From: Vibrio penaeicida
GTDB taxonomy: Bacteria > Pseudomonadota > Gammaproteobacteria > Enterobacterales > Vibrionaceae
DNA: 64,000 nt
Direction of reading: 5' to 3'
Assembly: GCF_019977755.1 (NCBI RefSeq)
Contig: NZ_AP025145.1
Span: forward strand, 434,001-498,000
A program made the position numbers and the translations under genes. Each line of letters opens with the position of its first letter. The first letter of the stretch is position 1. Positions 3,251 through 48,172 of the stretch are shown here, piece after piece. Under the pieces are notes generated by a model that ran no database searches, had not been told where the DNA came from, and saw nothing but the letters and a program-made list of their open reading frames with translations.

Positions 3251-3925
3251 CTACATTTTATCGTTATCTGAGCGGTAGTAGAGATAATCTGATTTGGTAC
3301 TGTCCCACCGGAAATAGGAGATATTAGTATCGATGCATTGTTTGATGTCGTCTATTACGTCTTGTACGTGTCCTTTTTTAATCGTTTGAAGATTGGCGAT
3401 CCGATGATAAAAAACAGTCCAAGACACAACCGCATTATCCCAACGGACGCCGCCATCATCACTGGTGGTAAATATGTAGCTGGGAGGGTCTATTTTTTCG
3501 CTATGCTCCCATTCTTCAGCAATCAACCTGTCTAACCCTTGATTACCAGCTTCACAAGATGAGAGTGATACAAAGACTTCACCATCGTAGTCATTCATGT
3601 CGGTAAAAATGGGTTTCATGGCCTCAAACATCTCTCGTCATCTGAGAAAATCGCTACCAAATTCAATACCTTTTTTGTTGCCGTGAGCAGAAATATGAAT
3701 ACACAAAGGCATATCTTCTTCCCCTCTAGGACCGTGGCTAGAATCAATGGAGGAGATGTAGCGACAATACTTGATGAGATCTTTTTCAGAATAAGCGATG
3801 AACTTAGCCACTTTATGCCCAAAAATTTTACACACCTGCTCTAGTGCTTCTGCTTCTGAACGCTCATTAAGCAAATCCATAGGGTCAACGCATTCAATGA
3901 TAAAAAGCCTGATTTTGTTATACAT
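3251..3925 (-). pseudogene. Caspase-like (CHAT/peptidase C14-type fold) gene interrupted by an in-frame TGA
   Basis: Two open segments on the minus strand, 3925-3641 and 3637-3251, lie in the same frame and are separated only by a TGA at 3640-3638. Joined, they give about 223 residues. The first half ends with a hydrophobic strand and ISAHGN; the second half has VFVSLSSCEAGN. A His-Gly after a beta strand and a later SxC-x-G are the spacing and flavour of the His-Cys dyad of caspase-like/CHAT proteases, with His just before the stop and Cys after it. The residues around the stop read DFLR-stop-REMFEAM; one G-to-A change from TGG (Trp) would explain it. A downstream ATG at 3631 exists, but a product starting there would lack the His. 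A remnant or a programmed stop are both possible; a recent nonsense mutation is simplest. Confidence 0.6.
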
Positions 3926-4021
3926 TTTTCTAGCCTATGGTTTAGCCTTGATTTAATTGATAGGAGAGTAATTTAAAGCGCGAGGTTTTAGGAGGGGTTC
4001 AGGTTACTGGGTTTGAAAATG

Positions 4022-5070: not shown

Positions 5071-8000
5071 TTATGGTCGCACAATGGCAACCCCTCTGAG
5101 CCAATCCTTATCCTTTTTATTAAAATTTGGAGAGCTACTGACTTTTGAATTATCAAACGTTTCATCCAACTCTGGTCCGGGGTAAATCGTATCGTTTGCT
5201 CTAAGCCGAACGCGAATGTTAAATGCCCTAAAATAGGTGTGAGTATAAGCCCTAGTCTTGAACATGTTGGTTTCCAAATTTGTACTTTTTAAAGGAAGAT
5301 CATGTTTTACAAAAAAGGCATACCCATCAAAAGTATTTACCGTTTTTAGCACACTTAAGTTGTTTGAACGTACCTCCGAAAGTTCTGCGGAGTAATCAAT
5401 ACCCATTTGGCTGGTCTCTTTCGTTTTCCGCCAGATTCCTTGCCTAGCAAAAAACTCTATCTTCAATTTTTCCTTATTGAACAAAGAGGCGAGGTTGGTG
5501 TTCACCCATATTACGTGAGTCGCCCCCAATGCTTTTACTTCCTCGGTAATAGAGGCGGGTAATTTCGTTTGCTTTTCAACTGAATACGATTTGATCGAAA
5601 TATTGAATATCAACCCGATAAATCGGTTAAATGCGGTTTTTGGATCTTGTAAGTGTTTGTATTCTTTAGAAGGGTCTTTACCGAATGGGCCGTTTTTTAG
5701 CCACACTTCAATTGGTGTGTCTTTAAAAATGGTGTAAAGCACGAACCCGAGCACCGCGATCCCGACCCCAATCCAAGCTATGGGACCAAGGCCTAGAAAA
5801 GTGGCAGACGAGGTAAACAACCCTGTCGCTAGTGTGGTGACCAGCGTGCCCATTGCAACCATGCCCATTGCCAAACCCGCATCGGTATCGTTTGATTCGA
5901 AGAGGCGGTAGCTGTCCCAAGCAGCTATGCCTGCAGTCAAAAGTCCCCCAAAAATCCCAATGGTCCCTAGCCGGCTAATATTACTGACTAAAGTCGTTGT
6001 ACCGTTTTGAAAGGTAAAGCGAGCAACAAGGCTCGGTGGAAAACGAATCAAAGTCTTAGCGCTATTGATGGCAAAGGAGGACGCATTAGATGTGTAAAAA
6101 TTTGCAGAGTGCGCAAGTGCTACTCCCAAATCTAATATAGTGCTAGCCACGTTAGCGATAGAGTGAGTGGAGAATTTCCCTTCAGATAGATTTTTATAGT
6201 GTTGTAAGTTGTTGATTAGATTTATTGTTTCAATCACCGTGATAAAGTAGGGGACTTTCAATGCTTCATAAATGTTACTCCCAGTCGCTCCTTTCTTACC
6301 AATATCTTGCAATGTTCTTTGCGTAGCTTCTCTATTTAAAGCTTCGGCGACTTCTGAACCTTCCGGTACCACCACCACTTTAAGCGGTAGCTTTTTACCG
6401 ACACTTTTAGTTCCTGATATTACATCATTTGCATGAAACGCTTTTTTCCCAGTAGAAGCGATCAGTTTTCCATCTTTATCGTACAAACGCCCCATAGGGG
6501 TTTTATTTTTCTTACTTTGTATATGCTTACGTTCTACATCCAACACGCCGTAACTTAAGCCGTGACCATGTACGCCAACCACTGCCCCTTTCAATTCTGA
6601 ACCGCCGACAGGCACATACAGTGCCTCCCCCCAAAGCTTTGAGTTTGTGGACTTTAACAATGCGAGTACGGGCGCATAAGCTGAATTGAATTCCACCACT
6701 TTAGCGTGTTCGCTAATGTTTTTAGATAGCGCGAGTACTGCGTCGAAGTAGCCTCGTAGAATGCCATCGGTTGTGTTTGAAATTCTGCGTACTGTAGCAA
6801 AAGGACCTTCGGAATTGTCATTTGCCTTAGCCATGAATGCTAAGTCCATGACCTTTAGGGCGTCATCCTCAATGATAAAGTGTTCACTTTCCCATTGCGC
6901 GAGGGATTCAGGGGTCGCGAATCCCGTTCCTGAATTGAACGGCTCTGGTGGCGTGTATTTATCTTCCAGTGAAACCAGTTCAGTTGATGGAAATAAAATT
7001 TTATGGAGTGGGTGAGGGCTGCCGCTTTTGAGGATATGTCTTACTGTCGGCATAAAGCTCACAGGCTTTTTATCCTCTGGAATGGTCATCGAATCAAGGT
7101 TGTCGATATTCATACTTAATGCGGTTAAGCCATACCCAGCAATGACGTGGGCTGCAGAAGCGTTCACCCCATTTAGCGAGCTGATATCTCGCAGTACCTG
7201 TGCAGTGCGTGTCGCGTTCATTTTCAGCTCTACGGCTTCTTGAATTTCTTTCACATCTCGCACGCAGATCTGTCGTTCAATGGTTCTCATTGTGCGATGG
7301 AATCGCCCTCCAAAAAATGTATCGAACTCGTCTTTATGCTCGTAGAATGGGTTCTCTTGCTTGCCGAATTTCTTTGGCAAAACGAATCGTTGAACCAGCT
7401 CAGCGCATTGGAAATACTCTTGTTTGGACATGTCCGTATAGACTTGCTGCAAATAACCAATGCCATACATCACAGTAAAGGCGTTGTGCCTAAGGTCAAA
7501 TAAAGGGTCGTCTAGAACAATGGCTCGGAGTTTACGTTCGCGTGCGTCAGCCAAACAATCTTGAAGAGCGTCGGTCTTCCATGCATCTTCGCTAGAATTT
7601 TCTGGCGAAACAATCGCCTCCAGAGCCGCATGTTTCATCCCATATTCGTATTGGAAAGATTCATTGTATCTGAGGACAGCCAACGCACTTTTTCCATCAG
7701 CCGAGATGGTTTTGAATTTGTTTTTTATTTCTTGGTATTGAGTACTAAGCCAATTTCCAGAAAGGTCACGACTTAGGTATCTGGGTTCAGCACAAAACAG
7801 TTCAATCTCGGGCTGGCGAGCTCTCATCTCAGGCAATGCTTTGGCATGAAGAACATCAACAGAGTCTTTCACATTCAGTTCATGAAAGGCAGACAAACGA
7901 CGTGAGCGATCATATTCATTGGATTCTAGGTAATTTAAGTACTGTGCACTCCATTGAACTTCAGAATACGCAAAATGAACTGTTGCTCTGCTGCCATTTG

Positions 8001-39120: not shown

Positions 39121-40113
39121 ATGAAAGTACAAGTAAAACTTCTCAGCGTATTAATTGCAGGTGCATTCAGTTCTGCTTTTGTTCAGGCAGACGACAATTC
39201 AGTGAGCCCTCGTATCATTGGTGGTTCGGAAGTGTCACATTCAACGGTGCCTTATCAGGTTGCATTAACACGGAACAGAAACCAATTCTGTGGCGGTACC
39301 TTGATTGCACCGAACTGGGTGCTGACTGCCGCACACTGTTTAGATGGAGTATCAGCAAGCCAAATGCAAATTCGCATAGGTGCTACAGACTTGCGTACCA
39401 ATCAGGGTGAATACCACAATGTATCTCGTATTCACGTGCATGAGCAGTGGAGTGGCAATGTCACCCGTGGTCGAGATATCGCTTTGTTGAGATTGTCTTC
39501 ATCGGTGAGCTCTCAATACAAACCTGCGAAATTGCCGACTCCTGCATTGAAGGCACAGTTGGCATCTCCTGGTAGTGATGTAAAAGTATCTGGTTGGGGG
39601 CGTTATACACGATCTTCCAGAGCTGGAAGCCCAGTTTTGAAAGCGACAAACTTGCCGGTGATCAGTAATGCTCAATGCAGTAACTTCATTGGTCACAATA
39701 CCGCTACGGGGCAAGTTCCAAGCGATAATATTTGTGGTTACGATACGCGCTCAACAGCGTGTCATGGCGACAGTGGTGGTCCGTTTGTTAAGCAATCCGG
39801 CAACGATTTCTATGTGTTTGGGGCAGTGAGCTGGGGATCACCGCAGTGTGACAGCGCGACGGCATTTGCAGATGTCACACAATTTGTCCCTTGGATCACT
39901 CGTAAATCGGGTATTTCGCCAGATGGCGGCACTACGACACCACCAGCAGATGCGTGTTCTGGTGTAGCATCTTGGGAACTGTACAAGCAATACAATCAAG
40001 GTGATCGTGTGATTGCTAACGGGTCTCTATTCGAGTCCAATGTTAGCCAATGGGGTGTGAACCCATTCAGCGATTACTGGGGTTACTGGAACCTAGTCCA
40101 AACGTGTAATTAA
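39121..40113 (+). CDS. Secreted chymotrypsin-family serine protease with C-terminal chitin-binding-like module
   Basis: A 330-residue protein with a signal peptide (cleavage near VQA-DD, residue 23), a short propeptide and the activation site R31-IIGG. The catalytic triad is His72 (LTAAHC), Asp119 (RDIALL) and Ser218 (CHGDSGGP). The residue at the S1-pocket base (chymotrypsin 189) is Thr212 rather than Asp, so Lys/Arg preference is not expected. After a Thr/Pro linker (about 268-276), SWELYKQYNQGDRVIANGSLFES and YWGYWNLVQTC resemble a CBM5/12 chitin-binding module. It is probably exported by type II secretion like other Vibrio proteases of this type, without a GlyGly-CTERM tail. It has a good AAGGAA ribosome site. 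Confidence 0.9.
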   Translation: MKVQVKLLSVLIAGAFSSAFVQADDNSVSPRIIGGSEVSHSTVPYQVALTRNRNQFCGGTLIAPNWVLTAAHCLDGVSASQMQIRIGATDLRTNQGEYHNVSRIHVHEQWSGNVTRGRDIALLRLSSSVSSQYKPAKLPTPALKAQLASPGSDVKVSGWGRYTRSSRAGSPVLKATNLPVISNAQCSNFIGHNTATGQVPSDNICGYDTRSTACHGDSGGPFVKQSGNDFYVFGAVSWGSPQCDSATAFADVTQFVPWITRKSGISPDGGTTTPPADACSGVASWELYKQYNQGDRVIANGSLFESNVSQWGVNPFSDYWGYWNLVQTCN

Positions 40114-40177: not shown

Positions 40178-40200
40178 CGGCTTCTTCGGAAGCCGTTTTT
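40178..40200 (+). terminator. Rho-independent terminator of the protease gene
   Basis: A perfect 7-bp stem, CGGCTTC (40178-40184) with GAAGCCG (40189-40195), closes a TTCG tetraloop and is followed by TTTTT. It lies 64 bases after the protease stop, between convergent genes; the minus-strand side has no T run. Confidence 0.92.
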
Positions 40201-41182
40201 AGATCTGTTTGCAAAGGGATGACAAGAGTTGTAACCCTTGCTCTATTTTATGTGCAATATTTTTATCGGGTATCGCTTGGTACTTCTGGTAGTGCAAATT
40301 TAGCCACCAACACTGACGAATCACAATAAGCAAAGGCAATATACTGAGGTCTAATTGTTCTGGTTCTTGTACTTGCTCTAAGTACCCTGAAAGCCCTGCA
40401 TGCCAGAGTGGGGCAGACAGCCGTTGCGATAGCGTCGACCATATCATTGTCGCAAGATCGTATTCCCTTGGTGCTAAAACCACATCTTCAAAATCCATCC
40501 AAAGCCATTCATGTTGCGGCGTCACCATGCAGTTAAGGCGATGCGCATCACCAATGCAGACCTTACTCTGCGTTTGCTTTAATTTAGGATCTTGTTGCAG
40601 CTTCTGATCTCCTTGCAATAAAGACGAATGGTAAGCACGCCATATGCCATCGAAAAGGGCTGGTGCGTTGAAAGGGAGTGCATGGTTATGTACCGCGTTT
40701 GTCGAATCGGATCGCACAAATTGCTCACATTGTTGGATTTGCGCTTTAGTGTTGAATTCTGAGCAACGAGTTTTTAGGGTAGGTATTCGGTCAAAATGAG
40801 CGTGCAGTTCAGCAAGAGACTGCCCCAATAGGAAAAAATCGCTGGGTGTATTGTCTGGGTGTTTACCTTCAATAAAAGGGCGAACCAACACATAACCTTG
40901 GTTTGTAGATTCTCCGAAGGGGCTTTCTCTATTGATGACACTTATCCATGAATTTCCATGAATCGTGATTTTAGGGGCGCAATAAGACAGCCCCATACAT
41001 TGGTATATTTCGGCTTCGTGGGAAAGGGTAAAAGGGGGCGAGCTTTGGTATTTCACAACCCACTCACCGTTTGCATCGCGCAATTTATAGAGCTGCGCTC
41101 TGCCTTTGGTGAGTGGCTCGATGGCTTTGACCTCCAATTGGTAATCGGAGATCAAAGTGTGAGTGAGAGATGGCGGAATCAT
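40199..41182 (-). CDS. APH-fold small-molecule/peptide kinase of the putative RiPP operon
   Basis: A 327-residue protein of the aminoglycoside-phosphotransferase/choline-kinase fold. Seen: an ATP-site lysine in VVKY (K44), the catalytic loop IGDAHRLNCMV (D212, N217), the metal-binding MDFED (D230), and YDLATMIW after it, as in this fold. The usual HGD is IGD here. Length is normal, and all catalytic residues seem present. It overlaps the preceding radical-SAM-like gene by 4 bases, so it is part of the four-gene operon. It could phosphorylate the product (for self-protection or as a modification step) or a precursor. No substrate can be read from sequence. Confidence 0.72.
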   Translation of the reverse strand: MIPPSLTHTLISDYQLEVKAIEPLTKGRAQLYKLRDANGEWVVKYQSSPPFTLSHEAEIYQCMGLSYCAPKITIHGNSWISVINRESPFGESTNQGYVLVRPFIEGKHPDNTPSDFFLLGQSLAELHAHFDRIPTLKTRCSEFNTKAQIQQCEQFVRSDSTNAVHNHALPFNAPALFDGIWRAYHSSLLQGDQKLQQDPKLKQTQSKVCIGDAHRLNCMVTPQHEWLWMDFEDVVLAPREYDLATMIWSTLSQRLSAPLWHAGLSGYLEQVQEPEQLDLSILPLLIVIRQCWWLNLHYQKYQAIPDKNIAHKIEQGLQLLSSLCKQI

Positions 41183-42069
41183 TCAGTGCCAAACGCCGAA
41201 TACAAGTGTGCGGCACAAGCACTGGGCATTTCAGGATACCGAGACGTGCCTATACTCTTATCTTGCTCATTGATGGGTGGACCTTGCGTAGCCCACTGGT
41301 TGATCAGATCTTGTGATTTAGGGTTGCTTAGCAAGGTTTCTTCCAAAGGTTGGTAGATGTCGCCTAAGCAAAACTCTTCCAACCCAACCAAGCTCATGCA
41401 TGGGTAAATTAACCCATCGTCGTCTACACACAGTTTCATTCTTCGAAAGCACGCCATCATGGTATCTGTGTTATTGCCCATTGTTTCGTTTACCTGAAAC
41501 CACTCAATATTCCCTCTATTCAGCCACTGCTCATCAAAAATATTGAGTTGGCTCATCACCGAGTACGAAGCAATAAAGGCGATATTTTTGTCTCGTGATA
41601 ATGCTTCCAGCCCTGCTTTTATCCGGCTTGCCTTTTCTGGAGTATCAACGTCTGTTGCTAAGATAACTAAACAAAACAGTTCTATGGAGTCTGCTTGCTG
41701 CATGCGCCTTATGAGCGTTGAGTCGGTGTGAAAAGCAGCGGCTTCAACCGTTACGCTAACACCAAATCCCGCTTGATGAATACCTGAACTGACGTTGATA
41801 ATTTCGTCTAGCCTAGGCACCACACTGTCGCCAGAAAAAGTCACGTCTCTGTCGTACATACAATGAATATTGCGGTTTTTCGAGATACCGACACTTTCCT
41901 GAAAAAACTGATCGTAGGTTTTCAGCCATTTAAGGAAATCATCGTAGGGAGCAACTTCATAATTTCTCTGAGATATCATCACTAATGACCGAAGCCATTG
42001 CATGGGGGTATCACATTTCCAAGGTTGCGCACTGATTGGGCTAACCTCCGTGATTTTAATTCTGTCCAT
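41179..42069 (-). CDS. Radical-SAM-like partner protein lacking the CxxxCxxC motif, with SPASM-like C-terminus
   Basis: A 296-residue protein. The N-terminal two thirds have alternating strands and helices like a partial TIM barrel (DRDVTFSGDSVVPRLDEI, GFGVSVTVEAAAFH, IELFCLVILAT, IAFIASYSV), but no CX3CX2C cluster motif. The C-terminal part, ACFRRMKLCVDDDGLIYPCMSLVGLEEFCLGDIYQPLEE, closely follows the SPASM/twitch pattern of radical SAM peptide maturases, with four or more cysteines. It overlaps the true radical SAM gene by 14 bases and the kinase by 4. A degenerate barrel that binds precursor or scaffolds its partner is the likeliest role; this is inference. Confidence 0.6.
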   Translation of the reverse strand: MDRIKITEVSPISAQPWKCDTPMQWLRSLVMISQRNYEVAPYDDFLKWLKTYDQFFQESVGISKNRNIHCMYDRDVTFSGDSVVPRLDEIINVSSGIHQAGFGVSVTVEAAAFHTDSTLIRRMQQADSIELFCLVILATDVDTPEKASRIKAGLEALSRDKNIAFIASYSVMSQLNIFDEQWLNRGNIEWFQVNETMGNNTDTMMACFRRMKLCVDDDGLIYPCMSLVGLEEFCLGDIYQPLEETLLSNPKSQDLINQWATQGPPINEQDKSIGTSRYPEMPSACAAHLYSAFGTE

Positions 42070-43114
42070 AATTTGCCTCTTTCAGCTCTTCTAAACTTTG
42101 TAGCATTTTAGATAGTGCTAATTTTGTACTGACGTCACTGATACTTTTTATAACTTCCACTGCCTCGGGGTTAGAAAATATTTTCCAACATAGCTGGCAC
42201 ATATTGGTGAACTTATCGCCCACTGATATACCCGCTGCTTCCAAAACCGGAAGGAATGTTCCTGGTCCTGAGAACACCAACATTCGAATGATCGGATCTC
42301 TATTCATCCTGTTTGTGATGTTCACGATGGACTCTTGGTTAATATTCCCTAGCTTGTAAAGCTGTGTTTGATCAAAGCCTGCACAACAAGGAGAAACGTA
42401 CCCAGCCGCATTAATGGTTAAATTTAACGAGCTGTGGCAACTCCCTGATTCTGCATTTTCAGATTCGTATATTTCCTCACTTTCGATTTGTTTCTCTGCA
42501 CGTCCTGTTCTGAACACGGGAGATGAGGTGATGCGATTAACTCTCGATACCGCATCTGGCGCGAGCAGTTCTAGAGCTTCTCCTACGTGGTGTTTTTTGG
42601 TGGTGAGCAGCCGAAGATTGATATCGATACCCGCATTGGATAAAGCGACGAGCGCATTTGATACGGCGGTAGGGTTGATGTGTTCTAAATGCCAATAGTC
42701 CCAACTGATTTCTGCACTGGTAAGCCCTGCTTCTTTCAATTGGTCAGCGACGCGTTGGGCTTTTTTGGCGTTTTCACCCCAATACGCGTTGGTCGTTACG
42801 GTGATATCGAGAAAGCCAGCCTCTTTACCGGTTTCGACGAGCGAGAAAACATCTTTGTGGCGCAAGAAGGCTTCACCCCCTGCGATATGTAAGCGTCGAG
42901 TTAATGTTTCAATTTTGGGTGCTTCACGTACAGCCTGAAGGAGCTTTTCCATGGATATAGAGTGAAGACCTAGCCTATCCGATCCTTTAGGACCGGAACT
43001 TTGATAGCACATTGCACACTGAGCGTTGCAGCGGTTAGTGGTTTCTACCACTAAGCCGCTGTATCTTATTGGCATCCAGTGAACAAGTGACGTTATGATG
43101 TCTGCTTGTTGCAT
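42056..43114 (-). CDS. Radical SAM protein with SPASM-like C-terminal cysteines, putative peptide maturase
   Basis: A 352-residue protein. The radical SAM motif CNAQCAMC (C29, C33, C36) is intact and followed by LHIAGGEAFL, the GGE motif that holds SAM. Further strands (DITVTTNAYW, AEISWDYWHL, INLRLLTTKK) fit the barrel. The C-terminal third has CHSSLNLTINAAGYVSPCCAGF, LGNI and CQLCW, a SPASM-like set for extra iron-sulfur clusters. Such enzymes install epimerisations, thioethers or other links in ribosomal peptides. Its start lies 8 bases after the stop of the Ala/Val-rich protein, whose stop overlaps this gene's AGGAGG ribosome site, so the two are translationally coupled. Confidence 0.82.
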   Translation of the reverse strand: MQQADIITSLVHWMPIRYSGLVVETTNRCNAQCAMCYQSSGPKGSDRLGLHSISMEKLLQAVREAPKIETLTRRLHIAGGEAFLRHKDVFSLVETGKEAGFLDITVTTNAYWGENAKKAQRVADQLKEAGLTSAEISWDYWHLEHINPTAVSNALVALSNAGIDINLRLLTTKKHHVGEALELLAPDAVSRVNRITSSPVFRTGRAEKQIESEEIYESENAESGSCHSSLNLTINAAGYVSPCCAGFDQTQLYKLGNINQESIVNITNRMNRDPIIRMLVFSGPGTFLPVLEAAGISVGDKFTNMCQLCWKIFSNPEAVEVIKSISDVSTKLALSKMLQSLEELKEANYGQN

Positions 43115-43122
43115 GGAGCCTC

Positions 43123-43761
43123 CTAGCGCATAAATGCACCTCTATTGATGCTTCTCAGCCTTGTGACGTCTCTAATTCCCGTTCGATCATGGAACTTGAT
43201 TCGACCGGGTAAAAACGTGCCCTTGCCTAGCCCTTGCAACTCGTACAAATCGGCTGCACGACCTGCCCTGACAAGCGTAACCACCATCGTTACAACAACA
43301 GCCGCCGCAACAACAACTGCCGCTGCTGCTGCAACCACAGCCGCTGCTGCTGCAACCACAGCCGCTGCCGCCGCCAAACCGGGTCCTTCGCCGATGACAG
43401 GACCAGCCAAGTCTGTTGGGGGTTTGTTCTCGAAACGGTTACGAATATCTATGATGTCTTTGGTCACATGAATGCCCGCTTCTTCAGCGAATTCAACATC
43501 TAGATTGATGTCGAAAAGCGTCTGATTTACGGTTTTAGCCACAACGTTTGGGTGAAGCAAAACACCATGTTCTACTGAATAAGTTTTAGGGTCAGACAAA
43601 AACTTCTGCGCTTCATCTGGCTTTTTTATCAGCTCTTTGATGAATGCGACTTGCCCTTCCAAAGGTGTAAACGCCACATTGTTCAGCTTATCCAGTTTTA
43701 CTTTGCGGGATTTTGCCGTTGATTTGTCAAATTCATTGACCGAACTTGTTTCATCAGGCAT
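43123..43761 (-). CDS. Ala/Val-block protein, candidate RiPP precursor with NHLP-like leader
   Basis: A 212-residue protein with a strong AAGGAGA ribosome site. Residues about 30-85 (EGQVAFIKELIKKPDEAQKF, then LSDPKTYSVEHGVLLHP) recall NHLP/nitrile-hydratase-type leaders: a helix, a DP turn and a HG-V-L-x-P segment. An acidic middle ends GEGPGL, then residues 130-164 are almost only Ala and Val in blocks (AAAAAVV repeated, then VVV-AAA-VVV-TMVV). The last 48 residues are basic with several Arg and Gly. There is no signal peptide. It leads an operon with a radical SAM protein. Ala/Val-rich cores with NHLP leaders occur in proteusins, whose radical SAM enzymes epimerise such residues. A membrane-anchored protein with an odd helix is the main alternative. 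Length is large for a precursor. Confidence 0.55.
   Translation of the reverse strand: MPDETSSVNEFDKSTAKSRKVKLDKLNNVAFTPLEGQVAFIKELIKKPDEAQKFLSDPKTYSVEHGVLLHPNVVAKTVNQTLFDINLDVEFAEEAGIHVTKDIIDIRNRFENKPPTDLAGPVIGEGPGLAAAAAVVAAAAAVVAAAAAVVVAAAVVVTMVVTLVRAGRAADLYELQGLGKGTFLPGRIKFHDRTGIRDVTRLRSINRGAFMR
43319..43375. repeat. 21-bp tandem repeat encoding AAAAAVV units
   Basis: Two perfect 21-bp copies (43319-43339 and 43340-43360) and a 15-base partial third copy with synonymous changes. Each copy encodes seven residues, five Ala and two Val, on the minus strand. Adjacent 43296-43318 is also repetitive (ACAACAACA, GCCGCCGCA) but not the same unit. Confidence 0.85.
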
Positions 43762-45949: not shown

Positions 45950-48172
45950 ATGAAACCCGGCTTAACAAAGCAGATCTTTAAGGGTCTGCTGATGCTTTGT
46001 GCACTCTACGCATTGTACATTTTGGCGACATTAAACATTTCGACAGAGACGCATATTTGGCTTGCGTCTAGTGCCTTTGTTTTATTATTGCTCTTGTCGA
46101 AGAACCTATCGACAAGAGCCACAACATTCATTCTGATCATCGGCGCATTCATTTCGTTTCGTTATATCTATTGGCGATTTCAAGAAACACTTCCTTGGGA
46201 AAGTAGCCTAGACTTGCCGTTTGCAATGCTGCTTTTTATCGCGGAGTGCTACGGTATTCTGGTCTATATGATGGGTATGTTTGTAACGGTTAAACCTTAT
46301 GAACGGAAACGCGTTCCTTTAAATATAGATGCGCATTTACCTACTGTGGATATTTACATCCCAACCTACAACGAGCCTATGGATGTTGTCGGTCCTACCA
46401 TTTTGGCGGCATCTCGTTTGGAATACCCTGGTAACTTCCGCGTTTACGTTTTGGACGATGGCGGCACTCACCAAAAGTTAAATAATGAAAATGCTGAAGA
46501 GGCAAGCGAAGCGCGTAGCAGAGCTCAGGCACTGAAGGCATTTTGTGAAGACGTTGGTGCAAGTTACATCACGCGAGAAAAGAACGTTCAAGCCAAAGCT
46601 GGGAACATCAATCATGCTTTGGAGAAAACATCTGGCGAGCTTCTTTTGATTCTGGACGCCGACCATGTACCAACGCGTGATTTTCTGATGAACACAATCG
46701 GCTTGTTTCAGAAGGACCCCAAGCTCGGCTTTGTTCAAACTCCACATTTTTTTGTTACCCCTGGACCCGTCGAACGAAACTTGGGTATTGAAGATAAAGT
46801 CCCTTCAGAAAACGAGATGTTTTACAACAAGACACTGGTTGGAATGGACTTCTGGAATGGTTGCTTTTTTTGTGGGAGTGCAGCGGTTATTCGCAGAGTG
46901 GCGCTTGAAGAAGTGGGAGGTATATCCACCAAAACCATCACAGAAGATGCCGACACTGCGTTAAACATGCACTCCAATGGTTGGAGCAGCGCGTATCTGA
47001 ATATTGCAATGGTAGCGGGGTTATCTCCGGATACGTTTGGTGCTTACGTTACTCAGCGTTCTCGCTGGGCGCAGGGCATGATACAAATATTCTTACTGAA
47101 TAACCCTTTGTTTAAAAAAGGCTTATCGGTTCCTCAGCGCATTTGTTACCTAAACTCAACGCTATACTGGTTTTTCCCCATTTTCCGATCGGTGTTCCTT
47201 GTATCACCGCTGCTTTATCTCCTGTTTGATCTGCAGATATTTGTTGGCAACACGAAAGATTTTCTGATTTACGTTGTGCCCCATCTGGTGATCAGCGTCA
47301 TGATAACTCAACGATTGTTTGGCAAAACACGACGCGCATTTTTCTCTGAGCTCTACGAAACTGCCCTGTCGATATACCTCTGTTTGCCGACGCTTTCTGT
47401 ATTGCTAAAACCGAAGAAACCCAGTTTTGTGGTGACGCCAAAGGGAGAAACAACGCAAAAAGTGTCGTTCTCCAAGCTTACGCCTTTCATGGCATGTCTG
47501 TTCGGCTTAGTTGTTTTGGCCGAGGTGTGGGGGATTTACCGCTACGTAAGTTTTCCTGCCGAGCAAAGCCAACTTATGCTGGTGATCTTGTTCAACACCT
47601 TCAACTTGATTTTGATTGTACTGTGTTTGGGGGCAATGCTCGAAACTCAGCAGCGTCGGAGCGAACCGAGACTGCTGGTGAATGAAAAAGCGGTTATCAC
47701 GGATGGAGACAAACGCTTCAATGCCACACTGAACGATATTTCACTGAAAGGTGCGAGGCTGACTTTGAGCAGTGTAGAGCACGATATTTTGTCAGGCGAT
47801 ATTGTCACTGTTTCTTACTTTACTGAGAGTGGGCAAGCCGAGAAAGGTCAAAAACCACGCTACAAAATCGTCAGCCTAAATATGCGGGTGGTAGCGGTTA
47901 AAAATGGTCAGCAAGGCGTACAAGTAAGCTGTGTTTTGGTGAGCCAAGAAGCTGAGGACATGCAAGTACAATACGCTAAGGCATATGGGCAAAGCCGACG
48001 GTGGAGCCAGAGAAGGGAATATGAAGAAAGCTTGAAGCAAGGCGTTTTATCTTCGGTTATTGGGCTTTTCTCATTAGCGTGCCAACACCTTACACGAGTA
48101 TTAACGACGTCCGTAAAGCAAAAAGTTGAAACATCAAAGGTTCAGAGTAAAAAGGAGTTTCAAGGTGAATAG
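45950..48172 (+). CDS. bcsA: BcsA-like beta-glucan (cellulose) synthase with PilZ domain, copy 1
   Basis: A 740-residue inner-membrane glycosyltransferase (GT2). Seen: four N-terminal helices, YVLDDGG (D170), LDADHVPT (D236/D238), FFCGSAA, TEDADTAL (D333) and QRSRW (369-373), the complete D,D,D,Q(Q/R)xRW set. Further helices follow and the gating loop FVVTPKGE (493-500). The PilZ domain has RSEPR (570-574) and DISLKG (596-601), the c-di-GMP binding motifs. It should polymerise UDP-glucose (or a related sugar) and move the chain across the membrane when c-di-GMP is bound. The end overlaps bcsB. Cellulose itself is not proven. Confidence 0.9.
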   Translation: MKPGLTKQIFKGLLMLCALYALYILATLNISTETHIWLASSAFVLLLLLSKNLSTRATTFILIIGAFISFRYIYWRFQETLPWESSLDLPFAMLLFIAECYGILVYMMGMFVTVKPYERKRVPLNIDAHLPTVDIYIPTYNEPMDVVGPTILAASRLEYPGNFRVYVLDDGGTHQKLNNENAEEASEARSRAQALKAFCEDVGASYITREKNVQAKAGNINHALEKTSGELLLILDADHVPTRDFLMNTIGLFQKDPKLGFVQTPHFFVTPGPVERNLGIEDKVPSENEMFYNKTLVGMDFWNGCFFCGSAAVIRRVALEEVGGISTKTITEDADTALNMHSNGWSSAYLNIAMVAGLSPDTFGAYVTQRSRWAQGMIQIFLLNNPLFKKGLSVPQRICYLNSTLYWFFPIFRSVFLVSPLLYLLFDLQIFVGNTKDFLIYVVPHLVISVMITQRLFGKTRRAFFSELYETALSIYLCLPTLSVLLKPKKPSFVVTPKGETTQKVSFSKLTPFMACLFGLVVLAEVWGIYRYVSFPAEQSQLMLVILFNTFNLILIVLCLGAMLETQQRRSEPRLLVNEKAVITDGDKRFNATLNDISLKGARLTLSSVEHDILSGDIVTVSYFTESGQAEKGQKPRYKIVSLNMRVVAVKNGQQGVQVSCVLVSQEAEDMQVQYAKAYGQSRRWSQRREYEESLKQGVLSSVIGLFSLACQHLTRVLTTSVKQKVETSKVQSKKEFQGE

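Follow-up and report, generated by a model that had tools for sequence, protein, structure and literature searches.

The stretch of DNA analysed here, referred to as the window, comprises 64,000 nucleotides of Vibrio penaeicida and contains a run of four consecutive minus-strand genes, located where an earlier note had placed them and in agreement with the list of open reading frames. The first encodes a precursor-like protein of 212 residues (43123..43761, minus strand), defined by its open reading frame, a family of 27 hits with a 27-row alignment, an AlphaFold2 model, and its composition and hydropathy. It is followed on the same strand by the genes for a YydG/EpeE-like radical SAM/SPASM protein of 352 residues (42056..43114), assigned through Pfam, NCBIfam, PDB and alignment comparisons, for a partner of 296 residues with a SPASM-like tail but no CxxxCxxC motif (41179..42069), and for an accessory APH-fold kinase-like protein of 327 residues (40199..41182). 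From precursor to kinase, the genes are separated by a gap of 8 bases at the first junction and overlap by 14 and 4 bases at the second and third; the spacing of 8 bases or less described previously thus holds for the gap and the shorter overlap but not for the longer one.

Sequence constraint on the four genes was assessed by a simple pN/pS count against two V. penaeicida strains, which differ by approximately 3-12% in the operon genes and whose nucleotide identity to the operon-bearing stretch is 90.1% and 95.1%. The ratios were 0.03 and 0.04 for the precursor gene, 0.02 and 0.02 for the radical SAM gene, and 0.04 and 0.02 for the partner gene, in the range of a neighbouring gene at 45950-48172 (0.02 and 0.02). 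The kinase gene, with values of 0.21 and 0.17, evolves faster than the other three. The four operon genes are thus genuine, and purifying selection acts on them. Promoter-like sites were of no use (2 found, 6.7 expected), and no transporter gene adjoins the operon among the window's open reading frames. On the plus strand, a gene for a trypsin-family protein (39121-40113; PF00089, 176.3 bits) runs convergently towards the end of the operon; the protein also shows a weak CBM5/12 match (E 0.018). This gene was considered as a member of the system, prompted by a Trypsin_2 protein in Tropicibacter oceani, and was set aside, as it lies on the opposite strand and has no tie to the operon.

The precursor contains the 35-residue block of nearly pure Ala and Val that first drew attention to the locus: 31 of the 35 residues at positions 130-164 are Ala or Val, and the runner-up blocks among the 59 window open reading frames of at least 100 residues reach 20/35 and 14/35. 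The protein is divided into a helical leader (approximately residues 1-111), a Gly/Pro-rich hinge, the Ala/Val block and a conserved tail. In the AlphaFold2 model the leader is entirely helical (pLDDT 83-93 for the blocks up to residue 110), and residues 130-167 form a helix of low confidence (pLDDT blocks 53-64). Hydropathy averaged over 19 residues reaches 2.81. The family of 27 hits comprises one protein 95% identical to that of the window (P0121) and 26 others, and the alignment of 27 rows contains the window protein and those 26. Across these rows G96, R107, A147, A148, A152, V156, V160 and V161 are invariant, T162, V164 and R165 are near-invariant, and conservation is highest from A147 to R165. 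All 27 cores lack Cys, which makes thioether chemistry unlikely; none offers the core Cys that serves as thioether donor in sactipeptides and ranthipeptides. The window core additionally lacks Trp and His. For 7 of the 27 precursor-family matches, the longest contig has the same size as that of a radical SAM cluster (among the 120 listed), an agreement that suggests that precursor and radical SAM genes lie on shared contigs.

Comparisons of the precursor with known families and folds gave little. A profile search of the PDB gave no meaningful match (20 chains with E values of up to 10, the lowest being 0.19), Foldseek with the model yielded a best E of 5.0, and Pfam returned no consistent family across the 27 members. 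The earlier note had described the leader as NHLP-like. This view finds no support in curated models: of the 2 NCBIfam families that the window precursor matches with E up to 1, none is NHLP, and the NHLP-clan model NF038399 is touched by 2 of the 27 members with a best E of 0.017 (25 of 33 matched families shown). NHLP membership was rejected on these grounds. By eye, the leader motif F..DPK.Y..EHG recalls NHLP leaders. A genome search with TIGR03793 returned no match anywhere and was uninformative, the positive controls being likewise blank.

The codons for residues 130-165 (43267..43374, minus strand) form imperfect 21-base repeats that encode the 7-residue unit AAAAAVV. Versions of the protein in the two V. 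penaeicida strains have 205 residues, one AAAAAVV unit fewer than the window protein, and the length of the block therefore varies in frame. Within the repeats, a hairpin of 14 pairs that resembles a terminator arises from the Ala/Val codons on the coding strand (43304-43335). This hairpin is likely a by-product of the GCN/GTT codons, and it may favour repeat slippage.

Pfam identifies Radical_SAM and SPASM domains in the enzyme. The best of its 42 NCBIfam matches is TIGR04078, the YydG family epimerase, which aligns over model positions 3-302 of 309 at 117.8 bits, far below the curated cut-off of 300 bits, so that the same function is not implied; the next match scores 45.1 bits. Each of the 32 rows in an alignment of relatives also hits TIGR04078, with E values below 1e-10. 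The nearest solved chains are those of YydG/EpeE (8ai1-8ai6; E 3e-22 by sequence and 1.6e-35 by profile), followed by tetraether synthase (E 2.8e-6 and 3.3e-7, respectively). The CxxxCxxC motif of the enzyme corresponds to C29/C33/C36, and further cysteines include C226, C243, C306 and C309. In the alignment with EpeE, entry 8ai3 reads PCA where the wild type has PCC; by their titles, 8ai3 is the C223A variant and 8ai6 the D210A variant. Because PCA occurs in the C223A entry, Cys223 of EpeE, the proposed hydrogen donor, is the second Cys of PCC and equates to C244 of the window enzyme. C29/C33/C36 and C244 are invariant in all 32 aligned rows, which include one T. oceani protein twice, and C244 is also invariant in the 7 rows of a separate alignment. 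A difference is found at Asp210 of EpeE, which aligns with Asn231.

The earlier proposal that a radical SAM enzyme is paired with the Ala/Val precursor is supported, and the enzyme can be specified further as being of the YydG/EpeE type. PoyD-type epimerases are distinguished by a single cluster and an RRE, and the window enzyme is instead SPASM-bearing and YydG-like. Epimerases of the YydG/EpeE type have been described as having no significant homology to those of the proteusin (PoyD) type (PMC8326336).

The third gene encodes, as had been suggested, a second radical-SAM-like protein without the SAM-cluster motif. CxxxCxxC is absent from all 6 aligned partners, and Pfam finds no radical SAM domain in the partner of the window. 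Its NCBIfam matches are of a weak SPASM type (TIGR04085, 20.4 bits against a cut-off of 27), and 4 of the 6 partners match TIGR04085 at E up to 0.1. TIGR04347, which from its model name we take to describe a pseudo-radical-SAM protein lacking the SAM cluster and encoded beside an active one, is not among these matches. Residues C207, Y222, P223, C224, C285 and H288 are invariant across the 6 partners, and the position after C224, which corresponds to the donor Cys of the enzyme, is occupied by M, I, L, L, G and G. A profile comparison with hhalign places C207/C224 of the partner on C226/C243 of the enzyme (E 5.8e-4, with a probability of only 29%), and fold matches to EpeE were found with what is a poor model of the partner. 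We infer that the partner is related to radical SAM proteins but has lost the SAM site, and it may keep a 3-Cys-1-His cluster. For PapB, it is reported that turnover of a radical SAM enzyme can require intermolecular electron transfer (PMC10470005).

These properties of the enzyme and its partner also bear on an alternative in which the two proteins cross-link the precursor through C-C or C-O bonds, desaturate it or alter its backbone, and no epimerisation takes place. Such chemistry would accommodate the score of the enzyme, which falls well short of the epimerase equivalog cut-off, the Asn in place of Asp210 and the presence of a second subunit, which EpeE is not known to have. It would also accommodate the T. 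oceani operon described below, whose additional radical SAM/SPASM maturase-like gene makes more than one chemistry possible there. On the other hand, all 32 rows retain the donor Cys, and a window core without Cys, Trp and His provides few handles for cross-linking. On balance, we consider the alternative unlikely.

The assignment of the fourth gene to the APH fold was confirmed by PF01636 (30.9 bits; cut-off 23.2). The window kinase is 31% identical to a T. oceani homologue, with D212, N217 and D230 common to both. Its standing as a core member of the gene set could not be upheld, as a kinase gene is adjacent in 2 of the seven systems compared below, those of the window and T. oceani system 1; its absence from two others, L036 and L038, carries less weight, with contigs of just 7.1 and 6.8 kb. 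A weak match of the T. oceani kinase to homoserine kinase models (35.3 bits; cut-off 271) leaves open a possible small-molecule substrate. A protein substrate is suggested by comparison with class V lanthipeptides, in which an APH-like protein is likewise encoded next to the precursor; the cacaoidin kinase CaoK has been reported to phosphorylate Ser/Thr residues of its own precursor (PMC9486802). In contrast to these lanthipeptide systems, no HopA1-type lyase is found among the four window proteins (E up to 1), and the precursor has no Cys for lanthionine formation.

Seven systems were compared: that of the window, with which the two V. penaeicida strains are counted, one in S. humi (L023), two on a T. 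oceani plasmid (L025), and one in each of three genomes of a single small class (L036, L037 and L038). The enzyme and partner genes are adjacent in all seven, and a precursor is present in all seven, giving eight precursors in three arrangements. The complete four-gene set put forward in the earlier note recurs in the same order on the T. oceani plasmid, where genes for a second radical SAM protein, a Trypsin_2 protein and an M23 peptidase come after the kinase gene. T. oceani system 2 (L025:23559-26310) has its own enzyme and partner, together with a convergent precursor with a different Ala-rich core. The precursor cores of L036, L037 and L038 are rich in Ser, Ala and Asp rather than in Ala and Val.

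Several of these loci contain additional features. The second radical SAM/SPASM gene of T. oceani (L025:19795-21417, 540 residues) scores 430.9 bits against TIGR03913 and 427.6 bits against TIGR04103, both below cut-off, and its sequence suggests a possible further modification in that organism. In L036, two Ser/Ala-rich precursor-like proteins (3520-3999 and 6307-6840) flank one enzyme-partner pair. A weakly M50B-like peptidase (L037:7514-8056; 23.5 bits, cut-off 26) is encoded upstream of the L037 precursor.

The fate of the precursor is a point on which the loci can be read in two ways. It could be that the precursor is never released and functions as a whole membrane-associated or structural protein, with a helix that is edited or tuned in length by the number of repeats. 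Conservation of the tail after the helix, the low pN/pS of the precursor gene (0.03-0.04), a 19-residue hydropathy of up to 2.81, the gain or loss of a repeat unit in frame among strains and the lack of a transporter adjoining the window operon would all fit such a protein. The Trypsin_2 protein and M23 peptidase in the same T. oceani gene run argue against it, as they fit cutting or export. This alternative overlaps with the reading favoured below, from which it differs in the fate of the product, and it is a serious though less probable contender. The conserved tail and the strong constraint fit both readings equally, a peptide that is released and a protein that is retained, and the product may be the whole protein.

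The notion that the four genes might be shared across vibrios was not supported: among 247 genomes of the family to which the window belongs, the enzyme was found in one (E up to 1e-20). A V. parahaemolyticus relative (P0069) is 46% identical to the window enzyme and groups in a tree with a cyanobacterial protein (100/100), apart from the window enzyme, as horizontal transfer would give. At a threshold of 1e-60, the enzyme occurs in 4 of 398 genomes of the phylum, in 1 of 369 genomes of the window's class (the window itself), in 3 of 48 genomes of the small class and in 1 of 198 genomes in the phylum of S. humi (G273, the query's own genome). It was found in none of 194 genomes in the phylum of G274, a search that had no positive control. 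The families of G536 and G489 gave 2/18 and 1/8, all previously known members. Viral contigs yielded no match, nor did phage records at the DNA level, and plasmids yielded one matching record, from T. oceani. Protein hits also named Paenibacillus, Evansella, Nannocystis and others, and systems were seen in Vibrio, Tropicibacter, Sphingobacterium and the three genomes of the small class. The gene set is thus rare and scattered across distant bacteria. Among the open-licence PMC papers listed by literature searches, no title or abstract opening describes it, which is no proof of its being unpublished.

The precursor profile matches the same four of the 398 genomes of the phylum, drawn alike, as the enzyme profile. 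Three of these four supplied rows to the precursor profile, so that the informative part of the comparison is G586 together with the 394 genomes without a match. An Ala/Val protein occurring without the enzyme, the observation expected to refute the proposed pairing, was not seen in the 398 genomes. That the Ala/Val protein is not the substrate of the enzyme and that the genes are neighbours for another reason appears very improbable: a leader-homologous precursor accompanies the enzyme in 7/7 systems and three arrangements, and the precursor is found in none of the other 394 genomes.

Based on these comparisons, the best explanation of the locus is that an EpeE-like enzyme and an inactive-looking partner act on a long-leader Ala/Val precursor to give an epimerase-modified ribosomal peptide, a reading to which we assign a probability of about 0.58. 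It is favoured because TIGR04078 is the top match of the enzyme, EpeE is its nearest structure, C244 is invariant, the cores are free of Cys, the genes co-occur and pN/pS is low. Ribosomal synthesis would provide a 212-residue precursor in which a folded leader of helices precedes an Ala/Val helix approximately 35-40 residues long. The enzyme would then remove the alpha-hydrogen from chosen Val residues, and perhaps Ala, in this helix, and Cys244 would return hydrogen from the opposite face, converting L residues to D. The partner, presumably unable to bind SAM in the usual way, would most likely act as a substrate holder or as an electron carrier through the 3-Cys-1-His cluster. The kinase may be an optional module, and its most likely role would be to phosphorylate either the precursor, where the near-invariant Thr162 lies in the core, or the product. 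Judging from hydropathy and the epipeptide precedent, membrane action of the product is plausible.

The closest known systems to this proposal are the epipeptides of Bacillus and others, in which EpeX/YydF is modified by EpeE/YydG. They resemble the window system in the near-full-length alignment of the enzyme, the placement of the donor Cys and the presence of hydrophobic Val among the likely targets. They differ in that the window enzyme falls below the TIGR04078 cut-off and has Asn for Asp210, and in that systems of the window type add a partner protein and sometimes a kinase. The window precursor, moreover, has 212 residues with a folded leader of approximately 110, whereas the epipeptide precursor leader is given as 32 residues (PMC8326336). 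Proteusins, such as PoyA modified by PoyD in the polytheonamide group, share the long leader, the Ala/Val-rich core and the expected epimerisation. The window leader, however, has no match to an NHLP model and is modelled as all-helical, whereas the solved structure of a proteusin leader contains two strands in addition to three helices (PMC10858898), and the window enzyme is EpeE-like rather than PoyD-type. Epipeptides (EpeE) and proteusins (PoyD kind) are treated as separate, with different leaders, in the account cited above for the epipeptides (PMC8326336). What sets the window system apart is that it combines an EpeE-like enzyme with an Ala/Val precursor that has a long leader, together with a dedicated partner without a SAM site.

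A more speculative form of the epimerase model, which we regard as doubtful, would assign the radical SAM enzyme and its partner to a single two-subunit epimerase. Its dead half would grip or measure the substrate while the epimerase walks along the AAAAAVV heptads, producing a length-variable, D/L-patterned membrane-spanning helix, and the same pair would elsewhere edit Ser/Ala/Asp repeats. If so, the pair would represent a general machine for the stereochemical editing of repetitive helices. More generally, if the epimerase model is true, the system would offer a direct route to how such enzymes pick sites within repeats and a route to the role of radical SAM pseudo-enzymes, and it would constitute a scattered new source of D-residue proteins.
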